From Thermodesulfovibrio sp. N1 (lineage in GTDB: Bacteria > Nitrospirota > Thermodesulfovibrionia > Thermodesulfovibrionales > Thermodesulfovibrionaceae): a DNA stretch of 45,487 nucleotides. The position numbers and the translations under genes were made by a program. The notes below the pieces were generated by a model. The model did no database searches. It had not been told where the DNA came from and saw nothing but the letters and a program-made list of their open reading frames with translations. Of this stretch, positions 6,693-10,750 are shown piece after piece. The number at the start of each line of letters is the position of its first letter. Position 1 is the stretch's first letter. The stretch spans positions 1-45,487 of the forward strand of contig NZ_MAVV01000010.1 of NCBI RefSeq assembly GCF_001707915.1, given 5' to 3'.

Positions 6693-7190
6693 TTAATCTT
6701 TTACGTACTCTGTGGCAGTTCTTCCTATCTCTCTGGCTAACTCAACCATACCGCCCTTAAATTGAAAGGCATTGGAAAAACCAATTGCTCTTAAAGCAAT
6801 GGTTGCTGCAGCAGCTCTGTCTCCAGTGTGACATATAACCGCTATTTTTTTATCCTTTGGAAGTTTTGCGAGATTTTCGGGTTTAAATAGTTCATGCATT
6901 GGGATAAGAAGACTACCTTTCCATACAGGTGCTATAATTTTCTGTTCTGCCGGTGTTCTTATATCAAGGATTACAAAATCTTCGTTTTTCTTAATCATAT
7001 CAAGTATATCTTTTGTGGTTATCTGACAAGGTCTCATAGTAAGAACTTGAGGATTCAACTGTGAAAACATAGCATCAAATTTTTTTGCTAATTCTACATC
7101 ATAAGCAAATAGTGTGCCAGAGAAAATAAAAATTGTTAAAGCAATGCCTAATAAAATTCTCATTTGAAAAATTTGTAGATATTTACTCAT
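6693..7190 (-). CDS. Exported single-domain rhodanese
   Basis: This is a 165-residue protein with an N-terminal hydrophobic signal (RILLGIALTIFIFSGTLFA), so it is periplasmic or membrane-anchored. The rhodanese domain shows the entry FVILDIRTPAE and the catalytic loop VICHTGDRAAAA with Cys in the CxxGxR-type motif. It would carry sulfane sulfur as a persulfide. The preceding linker holds a lone cysteine in RPCQITTKD. It is divergent from the selenocysteine-type triple rhodanese with a 217-base shared upstream region, which suggests joint control of exported sulfur-transfer functions. GGAGGT precedes the ATG. Confidence 0.9.
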   Translation of the reverse strand: MSKYLQIFQMRILLGIALTIFIFSGTLFAYDVELAKKFDAMFSQLNPQVLTMRPCQITTKDILDMIKKNEDFVILDIRTPAEQKIIAPVWKGSLLIPMHELFKPENLAKLPKDKKIAVICHTGDRAAAATIALRAIGFSNAFQFKGGMVELAREIGRTATEYVKD

Positions 7191-7282: not shown

Positions 7283-7407
7283 TAACGGTTTAAATAAAAT
7301 GTTAGGGGAGTATAATATAGGCAAAATATATAAAAATTTTAATTAATATAGATGAAATTTATGAAAATTAGTTATAATATAATAAAATTTTTAAAAGGAG
7401 GTATATC

Positions 7408-8757
7408 ATGAAAAGGAAACGAAGTTTACTTTTGATTGTCATGGTTTTTTGTCTGACCTTTGCATTTCTAGTCTCTAACAGCATATCTCAGCAAAAACCA
7501 ATAATTGCAAAGAGTTGTTCTCTTCCAGGATGCCACACAGCTAAACCAAATGAGCTATATGGAAATCTTAAAACAGTATCAGCAAAAGCTGAAATGATTC
7601 AGATTGATACTGGTGCACTCTGGACAGTAAAATTCGATGAAAACACAAAACTTAAAAACTGGAATCAACCAATCAACAAGATTCCAAAAGAAAAAGAGAT
7701 TACAATTACCTATGTAGAGAAAAATGGCGAACTGTATGCAACATTAATTAATGTAAAGCCCCCAGTAGTAGTAGATCCAGCTAAAGTTATTAAAGTTAGT
7801 GAGATGAAGAAAATTTTTGACGACAAAAAAGGATTAATTATTGATTGTAGACCGCCAGGAAGATACCATGAAGGACATATTCCTGGATCGATAAATATTT
7901 GGTATGCAGAATTTGATAAACATATTGACAAGCTTCCTCAAGATAAAAATGAATTAATTGTATATTATTGTCAAGGTCCTACCTGAGCTTTGACTCCTTC
8001 ATCTGCTCGTAGAGCAGAAGCACTTGGTTATACAAATGTAAAACAGTTTGTAGATGGAATACCTGAATGGAAAAAACAGGGTTATCCTGTTGCCTCAACT
8101 CCAAAATACTTAAAAGACTTAATTGAAAAAGACATACCCCATGTATTAATTGATGTTCGCCCTGCTGAAAAGGCAAAACAGGAACACATTCCAGGTGCTG
8201 TAAATATTCCCCTTGCTGACCTTGAAAAAGCTAAGAATCTCTTCCCAAAACAAAAGAATGCTCCAATTTTAATTTATTGTGATTTGGACAAACTCTCCCA
8301 ACAAGCTTTCGATATAGTAAGAAAATGGGGTTATATTAACACTTCTTATGTTGTTGGAGGATTAAATGCCTGGAAACAGACTGGTGGCCAAGTAGTAAGC
8401 GATCAATTCAAAAAACAAATAGTCTATGTTCCAAAGCCAAAACCAGGTACAATAGGTGAAGAGGAATTCAAAAAGATTGTTGGTAAACCTCCTAAAAATG
8501 TTTTTATTCTTGATGTAAGAGATCCAGAGGAAACACAAATGGGAATGCTTAAGGGTGCCAAGAATATACCCGTCAATGAATTAAAAGACAGGCTCGGTGA
8601 AATTCCAAAAGATAAAGAAATAATCATTCACTGCGCAACAGGAATGAGAGCTGAAATGGCTTATAATATCCTTAAAGAAGCAGGCTATAATACAAAGTTT
8701 CTTGATGCCAATATACAAATTAGAAAGGATGGAAAATATAAAATAATCAAAGAGTAA
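7408..8757 (+). CDS. Exported haem-motif triple rhodanese, probable selenoprotein (UGA = Sec193)
   Basis: The frame reads 192 codons to a TGA (7984-7986) and continues open in the same frame to 8757, giving 449 residues if the UGA is read through. In order: signal peptide (about 1-27); haem-c-type motif CSLPGCH (37-43, CX4CH as in cytochrome c3); a beta-rich linker; rhodanese A (about 125-230) with DCRPPGRYHEGHIPGS and catalytic-position Cys188 in YYCQGPT-U; rhodanese B with Cys291 in LIYCDLDK; rhodanese C with canonical Cys409 in HCATGMRAEM. The UGA lies at the second Cys position of the CX4C form of rhodanese loop, inside an uninterrupted domain, and is followed by a SECIS-like hairpin. The remainder has no ribosome site or signal peptide of its own. 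A nonsense mutation is the alternative. AAGGAGG precedes the ATG. Confidence 0.8.
7984..8020 (+). promoter_or_regulatory. UGA codon with candidate bacterial SECIS hairpin
   Basis: TGA at 7984-7986 is followed by a perfect seven-pair stem, TCTGCTC (8002-8008) and GAGCAGA (8012-8018), closed by loop GTA (8009-8011). The first loop base is G and lies 22 bases past the UGA. Known bacterial SECIS elements sit just downstream of the Sec codon with a conserved G in a small apical loop. The stem is coding, as expected. Whether SelB would bind it is not shown. Confidence 0.65.
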
Positions 8758-8760
8758 ATT

Positions 8761-8795
8761 AAAAAAAAGGGGGATCTCTTATTCCCCCTTTTTTT
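8761..8795 (+). terminator. Rho-independent terminator after the triple rhodanese
   Basis: A-rich tract 8761-8768 and GGGGG (8769-8773) pair with CCCCC (8784-8788) and T7 (8789-8795) around a 10-base loop. It lies 3 bases past the stop, with a classical U-tract. It separates the rhodanese transcript from the cytochrome gene. Confidence 0.88.
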
Positions 8796-8800
8796 CTTGC

Positions 8801-8811: not shown

Positions 8812-10750
8812 ATGCCCTTTAAACTCGGGAAAATCAGTGATTTAGCCAAGCCTTTAACAGTAACTGTCTTTTTTCTTCAATTTTTTCTAATAATTGGTTA
8901 TTTTGGTTACAAATACTACATGGATTCTTCAGAAAGTTGTATCCAATGCCATGGTTCAAAGGAAAAAATGGCTGAATTTGGATATCCTCAATTTTATATA
9001 ACCCTTGAAGATGTAAGAAAACAGACAGGACATAAAACAGTTTTCTTTCTGCAGCGACTGTCATCTTGGTAATGGAAGGACAAATGATAAGGAAAAAGCT
9101 CACAAAGGTATGCTTAAGCCAATATATGTTAATGATTCAATGGATGTAGAGGAAAGAAAAAAGCTTTATGACAAAAAGGATTCTGAACTTAATAGATTAA
9201 TTCCTCAAGGTGATGATGAACTCTTTAATATGCTTCCCAAAATTAAAGAAAATAGCGAACTTAACTTACATCCTAAGGTAAGAAATCTTCTCTGGCATGA
9301 TAGAAATCCTGAAAGTTTTAACTTTGACCCTGAGATAATCAAAAAAACCTGTGGGAAAAGAGGTTGTCATACAGAAGAACTTAAACAATTCAGAACAACC
9401 ATAATGGGTGTAAATTTCAGACAGAGGACAATGGTTAGTTGGCTTGAACCCTATGGCCCTCACAATTGTGGTCCTTCCTTTGCTGATGTTCCACCAGAGG
9501 AAGTCTTAAAAAAAGTTGGTTTTGATTTTACAAATACAGAAAAAATTAGAAAAGAAATGAACATTTCTTTTACCAATGAACAGGCTATGCGTAGACAAAA
9601 GATGTGTAATGTCTGTCATGCTGGTTGTCTTGACTGTCACTATGCGCCAAGTCCTGAAAAGGGTTCCCATGCATTTTTAAAAATACCAGACTCATATAGT
9701 TGTATGGGAAGGGGTAGAGGTAATTCAGTATGTCATACAGGCGCATCCCAATCAAGAAGAGGAGAAACATATATTGGTGGATTTTATTCAATTCCACAGG
9801 GTAGAAAAGGAGATATCCATTTTAAAAAGGGTATTCATTGTATAGATTGTCATCAGACAGGTAAAAAAGGTATGGGAGATATGAAGCGAAAGGCAACTTG
9901 TCAGGACTGCCATATTGAAATTGAAAGGGCTCACGCAAAATCAATTCATAAAAATCTTACATGTACTTCCTGTCATGTAACTGAAGCAGGTGGTTATCAG
10001 ATTACAATATGGGGTAGGGGGTATATTGGAGAAAATTTAACACCCTTTAAAAAATATTCCCTTTATCACGGAATTCAGAAGCCATTAATTCTTATGAAAG
10101 ATCAAAAAGGAATATGGTTTCCTGTTAAGATATTTCCCCACAGTGTAGGAAATATTAAAGAAAAAGTTTCTCCATCAGGTCTTCGCTATAGGTGGCAAAA
10201 TGGTGAAACAAGAGATATGTATTACATTGTTGGAACTGTTGATGGCCTACCCTCTGGTAATAGACATTTACTTTGGATTCAAATTGAAGAAGTTTCTCAT
10301 CCCTTTGGAAAAGCAAGGGATTGTAAAAGTTGTCATAATAATAAACAGGTTTCTGTATCTACATGGCAGTATGAAGATACTCAGGGTGCAGAGCCTTTCA
10401 AAGGGGGATATAAAATTGTAGCTGATGAGAAAGGATTAAGAATAAAGGATTTCTGGCATAGCAAAATTAATATTTTACCAGGTTTTGAATTGACTGATTT
10501 TGCCTCCTGGATTTATTTTACTGATAAGTGGTTTATTCCAGGTGATTTTTCAATAAAGATTGACTCTAATAAATATAAAAAATACCTAAATCTCCATGAA
10601 AGAAATCTAAAGTTCCTTAAAAAAATAGAAAGCAAGATTAAAGATGAAAGGGAGAGACAGAAATTAAGAGAAATTAAGGGTATTTTAATTCACAATCCTG
10701 AATTTAATATTAAAAATGAAAAAGATTTACACAATTGGTACAAGCAGTAG
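8812..10750 (+). pseudogene. Membrane-anchored multiheme cytochrome c (about 10 haem motifs), one frameshift
   Basis: A first frame (8812-9072) encodes an N-terminal membrane anchor (residues about 14-35) and the haem motif CIQCH, then shifts. Removing one T from 9046-9048 joins it to the frame ending at 10750 and restores a second motif, FCSDCH. The full protein would be 645 residues. Motifs in order: CIQCH, CSDCH, CGKRGCH (CX4CH), CNVCH, CLDCH, CMGRGRGNSVCH (CX9CH, atypical), CIDCH, CQDCH, CTSCH, CKSCH. It is probably a periplasm-facing electron carrier or oxidoreductase. Its place after two exported rhodaneses suggests sulfur-compound redox, but no exact family was recognised. The preserved haem sites on both sides of the shift make a sequencing error or very recent mutation likely. 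Confidence 0.85.

Follow-up and report, generated by a model that had tools for sequence, protein, structure and literature searches.

The window analysed here, a stretch of 45,487 nucleotides from Thermodesulfovibrio sp. N1, contains a frame for an exported rhodanese that continues across a TGA inside an active-site loop. This raises two questions: whether the TGA is read as selenocysteine (Sec), and what a protein built in this way would do in the cell.

A rhodanese frame with one internal TGA

A single frame runs on the + strand from an ATG at 7408 to a TAA ending at 8757, and the TGA, codon 193, is its sole internal stop. The codon stands in the context YYCQGPT-TGA-ALTPSSARRAEALGY, within an active-site loop, C188-QGPT-U193, that belongs to rhodanese domain 1 of three, so that Sec193 would lie at Cys188+5, which we take to be the sixth residue of the rhodanese loop. 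The coordinates, the codon number and the three domains had been proposed in an earlier, sequence-only reading of this DNA, and proved correct when the frame was re-read and the protein was matched to Pfam (PF00581, E = 4.7e-55, in three stretches). The features of the gene are as follows.

7396..7401, + strand: ribosome-binding site AGGAGG, seen in the sequence
7408..8757, + strand: predicted exported selenoprotein with a heme-c motif and three rhodanese domains; 449 aa with Sec inserted at TGA 193
7516..7536, + strand: heme-c attachment motif C37-SLPG-C42-H43, after the signal peptide; C37, C42 and H43 show no variation across the alignment
7552..7755, + strand: small all-beta domain, residues 49-116, between the heme motif and rhodanese domain 1 (AlphaFold2 model)
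7798..8076, + strand: rhodanese domain 1 (PF00581), bearing Cys188 and Sec193
7969..7971, + strand: codon of Cys188, the expected persulfide cysteine, invariant in the homologue alignment
7984..7986, + strand: TGA very probably read as selenocysteine 193; TGA or Cys in all homologues
8098..8379, + strand: rhodanese domain 2 (PF00581)
8461..8706, + strand: rhodanese domain 3 (PF00581), with a near-invariant active-site Cys409 (HCATGMR) in the alignment

Domain 2 lacks a conserved cysteine across the alignment, and because its own Cys is kept only in part of the genus it is probably a structural domain. In the AlphaFold2 model (mean pLDDT 84), residues 49-116 form the beta domain and the remainder the three rhodanese domains; residues 24-44 are of low certainty and no heme is placed. 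A fold search of the PDB returned rhodanese folds only, with sulfurtransferases as the best relatives. The N-terminal heme-c motif was absent from the sequence-only reading, as was the sulfur-respiration neighbourhood described below. It takes the form CX4CH in Thermodesulfovibrio and CXXCH elsewhere, and one or the other is present at the N-terminus in 77 of 80 loci from named genomes; among the three without it, one (L068) is missing its N-terminus. Since a conserved CX2-4CH behind a signal peptide is the signature of covalent heme c, the protein is expected to carry one, the export signal having been judged by eye.

Decoding of codon 193

In a search of 100 relatives of the genome, the protein recurs repeatedly with one TGA inside. 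We compared the aligned residue in two sets of loci, which overlap partly in that several records are identical. Among 30 loci from these relatives (identity from 100% to about 40%), the column holds TGA in 26 and TGT or TGC in 4, and nothing else. The 80 loci from named genomes, drawn from Thermodesulfovibrio and other Nitrospirota, Desulfopila, Desulfomonile, Geobacteraceae, Betaproteobacteria, Acidobacteriota and others, hold TGA in 53 and Cys in 27, with no other residue. The sequence-only reading had suggested asking whether homologues have Cys at position 193; homologues with some unrelated residue there, and with UGA or frameshift mutations of independent origin, would have told against the Sec assignment. 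Wherever the position is not TGA it is Cys in both sets, and neither an unrelated residue nor a separate frame break was seen in the 80 and 30 loci. On a tree computed with the Sec column masked, well-supported branches force at least seven changes between Sec and Cys.

One metagenome-assembled genome (N1_Bin_METABAT__160_1) holds one Sec copy (L060) and one Cys copy (L062) of the protein. In a congeneric genome, all that is left beside the conserved single rhodanese is a piece of rhodanese domain 3 interrupted by stops (L163, G013:C20:2191-2418), an apparent loss of the selenoprotein gene.

Comparison of TGA and Cys homologues also identified a SECIS hairpin downstream of the TGA.

8002..8018, + strand: SECIS hairpin UCUGCUC-GUA-GAGCAGA, from comparison of TGA and Cys homologues

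The first stem base lies 15 nt after the TGA and the loop G, defined as the G that opens the SECIS apical loop (position 25 with the T of TGA as 0), lies 22 nt after it. A bacterial SECIS-like hairpin is found 15 nt downstream in every TGA copy, whereas most Cys copies have it in decayed form: of 6 stem pairs, a mean of 5.89 is kept in 63 distinct TGA sequences compared with 4.04 in Cys homologues, and the loop G is present in 60 of 63 TGA copies versus 8 of 28 Cys copies. When the TGA sequences were recoded synonymously, with amino acids unchanged and codons drawn from the genes' own usage, only 4.16 ± 0.14 pairs were retained (maximum 4.57 in 200 trials), and the mean folding energy was −6.7 kcal/mol versus −11.6 kcal/mol for the real sequences. 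Covariation at codon third positions links alignment columns 21 with 33 (UA/CG/UG) and 24 with 30 (CG/UA), and none of 500 shuffles reached the covariation score of the hairpin. In TGA forms the peptide that follows Sec (SA-R/G/S-R/K-AE) varies little, whereas in Cys forms it has more freedom; a constraint from the RNA would produce this pattern. Against dinucleotide shuffles, the energy of the window's own hairpin is not exceptional (z = −0.46), so the case for a SECIS is a comparative one. On this comparative sequence evidence, we conclude that the hairpin is under selection at the RNA level.

The genome encodes the machinery that Sec insertion calls for. We found selB (contig C2), selA (C37, 614 bits), a tRNA-Sec gene, selC, with anticodon TCA (UCA in RNA; C46), and selD (C24), which itself has an in-frame TGA at the usual Sec place (SAG-U-AAK). 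All four genes that the sequence-only reading had suggested searching for are thus present, including selB and selC, the absence of which it had regarded as fatal to the assignment. SelB scored above the cut-off in 24 of the 26 genomes of relatives with the TGA form; it was partial in one (G003) and was not found in another (G082), both of them drafts. In the named set, SelB was above the cut-off in 24 of 24 TGA genomes versus 15 of 26 Cys genomes, an association with a hypergeometric probability of about 2e-4; that figure presumes independent genomes, and these are not independent. Another genome among the relatives, G008, has the Cys form (L170, G008:C24) and a tRNA-Sec match of 72.6 bits; no full SelB was found in it, and perhaps its Sec system is being lost or contigs are missing.

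These observations bear on other accounts of the TGA. A nonsense mutation or sequencing error that leaves two fragments of a dead gene might be suspected because the adjoining cytochrome gene is frameshifted in the same assembly, but the same TGA recurs in most homologues across several phyla, the protein is conserved on both sides of it and the downstream hairpin is selected. We regard this account as very improbable, and ruled out by the TGA/Cys pattern. Reassignment of TGA, or its reading as Trp in this organism, is more improbable still. TGA is an ordinary stop here, since 8 other ORFs of at least 150 aa in the window end in it, pyrR, pyrC, carA and carB among them; homologues have Cys and never Trp, the Sec system is complete, and the exclusivity of TGA and Cys, together with the SECIS, rules out this reading. 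Translational restart at the TTG immediately after the TGA was rejected because it explains neither that exclusivity nor the SECIS. UGA 193 is therefore almost certainly a Sec codon, as judged from sequence comparison.

Neighbourhood and proposed role in sulfur reduction

Three features flank the gene in the window.

6693..7190, − strand: divergent exported single-domain rhodanese, kept beside the selenoprotein gene in the genus
8768..8797, + strand: terminator-like hairpin GGGGGAT...ATTCCCCC followed by a T run, between the rhodanese and cytochrome genes, seen in the sequence
8812..10750, + strand: membrane-anchored, NrfH-like multiheme cytochrome c, a neighbour across the genus

The likeness of the cytochrome to NrfH is weak and lies in its N-terminus. 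Its gene has a frameshift near 9043-9050, in a T-rich stretch, and is one intact frame in the relatives L046-L049 and L051; the break is either a real mutation or an assembly error. The broken frame and the terminator-like hairpin between the two genes make it uncertain that rhodanese and cytochrome are electron partners. The 5 kb around the rhodanese gene contain no multiheme gene in most other Nitrospirota. The Cys form in Geobacteraceae and kin adjoins a PhsA-like thiosulfate reductase (a molybdoenzyme) and an NrfD-type membrane subunit, and the same loci hold an octaheme cytochrome of the tetrathionate-reductase family and a DUF3373 protein. The Nitrospirota-like locus L060, which has the TGA form, likewise has a tetrathionate-reductase-family octaheme cytochrome downstream. 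These neighbours place the protein in the periplasmic reduction of sulfur compounds.

Taken as a whole, the best explanation, to which we assign a probability of roughly 0.55, is that the protein serves sulfur respiration, either as a sulfane-sulfur reductase or as a module that delivers sulfur. What the sequences themselves show is the coding of Sec, with its SECIS, together with the heme motif, the three domains and the neighbourhood; we infer the substrate, the electron flow via the heme and, from chemistry, the Cys188-Sec193 selenenylsulfide. In this scheme, SelB and tRNA-Sec would decode UGA 193 owing to the downstream hairpin, and the mature periplasmic protein would consist of one covalent N-terminal heme c, the small beta domain and the three rhodanese domains. 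Cys188 would accept sulfane sulfur from polysulfide, from thiosulfate or from a persulfide passed on by Cys409 of domain 3. Sec193, as the resolving selenolate, would attack the Cys188 persulfide to release HS− and form the selenenylsulfide, which could then be re-reduced by electrons passing from the quinol-linked multiheme cytochrome next door through the heme to the Cys188-Sec193 pair.

We favour this explanation over one in which the protein is a selenoprotein counterpart of the sulfur carrier Sud, handing polysulfide sulfur to a molybdoenzyme without itself being a reductase. There the heme would be a sensor or structural, and Sec would speed sulfur release or resist over-oxidation. The rhodanese fold and the sulfurtransferases found as best PDB relatives suit a carrier, as do the PhsA-like enzyme and NrfD beside the Geobacteraceae Cys forms and a weak match (E = 4e-4) to PDB chain 1qxn, annotated as sulfide dehydrogenase, which we take to be Sud. 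However, the window has no molybdenum reductase gene next to the selenoprotein gene, a protein that only carried sulfur would hardly be expected to bear a heme, and the C-x4-U/C pair common to all homologues suggests redox cycling. A carrier is thus possible but the less likely role. An improbable alternative is that the protein handles selenium or tellurium oxyanions as ExtH may do, reducing or trapping selenite in the periplasm. Geobacter ExtH is rhodanese-like and is encoded in a cytochrome-rich cluster with the cytochrome-like selenoprotein ExtKL (PMC5877670), but the N1 protein scores just 12.5 bits with the ExtH model, the cut-off of which is 200, and the neighbours found here are unlike the ext cluster as described.

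Within the favoured explanation, a more specific proposal, which we hold only tentatively, is that of a self-contained periplasmic sulfane-sulfur reductase. Such an enzyme would reduce persulfide by means of a covalent heme c and a Cys-Sec pair on a single chain, would need neither an iron-sulfur nor a molybdenum centre, and would be fed from the quinol pool by the NrfH-like cytochrome. If true, this would be a new type of sulfur-respiration enzyme spread over several phyla. The predicted protein brings selenium, heme c and persulfide chemistry together in one exported polypeptide, and is a concrete candidate, open to testing, for how electrons reach sulfane sulfur in Nitrospirota and Desulfobacterota. 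The natural exchanges of Sec and Cys, at least seven, and the single genome with both forms make the family a good system in which to ask what benefit Sec has over Cys. Because standard gene calling splits such genes at TGA, many annotations probably lack this widespread family or contain it in broken form.

Comparison with known rhodanese selenoproteins

Our literature search returned nothing specific on this protein family in Thermodesulfovibrio or Nitrospirota. A 2026 review lists five forms of rhodanese selenoprotein, with the motifs UxxS, UxxG, CxU (NF041203), again UxxG, and UxxxxU (TsoB) (PMC13188914). Single-domain C-x4-U rhodaneses also occur among the relatives, and their genomes hold other loops. 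One locus (L160, G094:C52) has two in-frame TGA codons in the loop FYU-DGLT-U, a U-x4-U with the spacing of TsoB. Two rhodanese-like loci (L157 and L162, G056:C47 and G096:C87) have TGA at the apparent place of the catalytic Cys (IVxIU-MFDKRS), and L172 (G019:C25) has it at C+7 (FYCHGGTSG-U), a Sec place that, if real, is unlike the listed forms. A single-domain rhodanese of Desulfopila sp. IMCC35008 (L141) has the CxU motif (LYCAU), as in NF041203.

Form 1 of the review is a rhodanese-like selenoprotein with a UxxS motif (WP_010941598.1; PMC13188914, table). The present protein resembles it in that Sec is followed by xxS/T, as URLS in most relatives and UALT in the N1 protein. A single-domain Geobacter protein, L140, has a C-x4-U loop (YCSGST-U-RGS) that fits UxxS. 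L140 has no heme motif, whereas the N1 protein has a heme motif, the beta domain and three rhodanese domains. Since L140 combines the UxxS fit with C-x4-U, the C-x4-U site is probably already known as form 1, WP_010941598.1 having been compared by motif only.

TsoB (NF045694) has the same loop spacing, its second U would match Sec193, and domain 1 aligns with its model; TsoB, however, has two Sec in a U-x4-U arrangement and a DsbD-like fusion, whereas the N1 protein has C-x4-U and scores 87.6 bits against a cut-off of 805. NF041203 (rhodanese_LYCAU, CxU) likewise has Sec beside the catalytic Cys in a rhodanese active-site loop, but at C+2 instead of C+5, and the N1 protein reaches 81.3 bits against a cut-off of 115. 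The pairing of Wolinella Sud with Psr is similar in that a periplasmic rhodanese goes together with a reductase of the Psr/Phs type and with NrfD, as in the Geobacteraceae relatives. Sud is a single-domain protein and is not known to have heme or Sec. ExtH (NF040901), rhodanese-like and of about 49 kDa, belongs to the cytochrome-rich selenite/tellurite cluster of Geobacter; the accessible part of its description mentions no Sec for it (PMC5877670), and its model score lies far below the cut-off, as noted above.

In NCBIfam 20.0, no model spans the heme and three-rhodanese protein: the TsoB, LYCAU and ExtH matches fall below their cut-offs, and PspE is above its cut-off as the sum of single-domain matches. 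The site itself is thus probably that of a known form, and what is new here is the heme-carrying, three-rhodanese architecture of a rhodanese selenoprotein.
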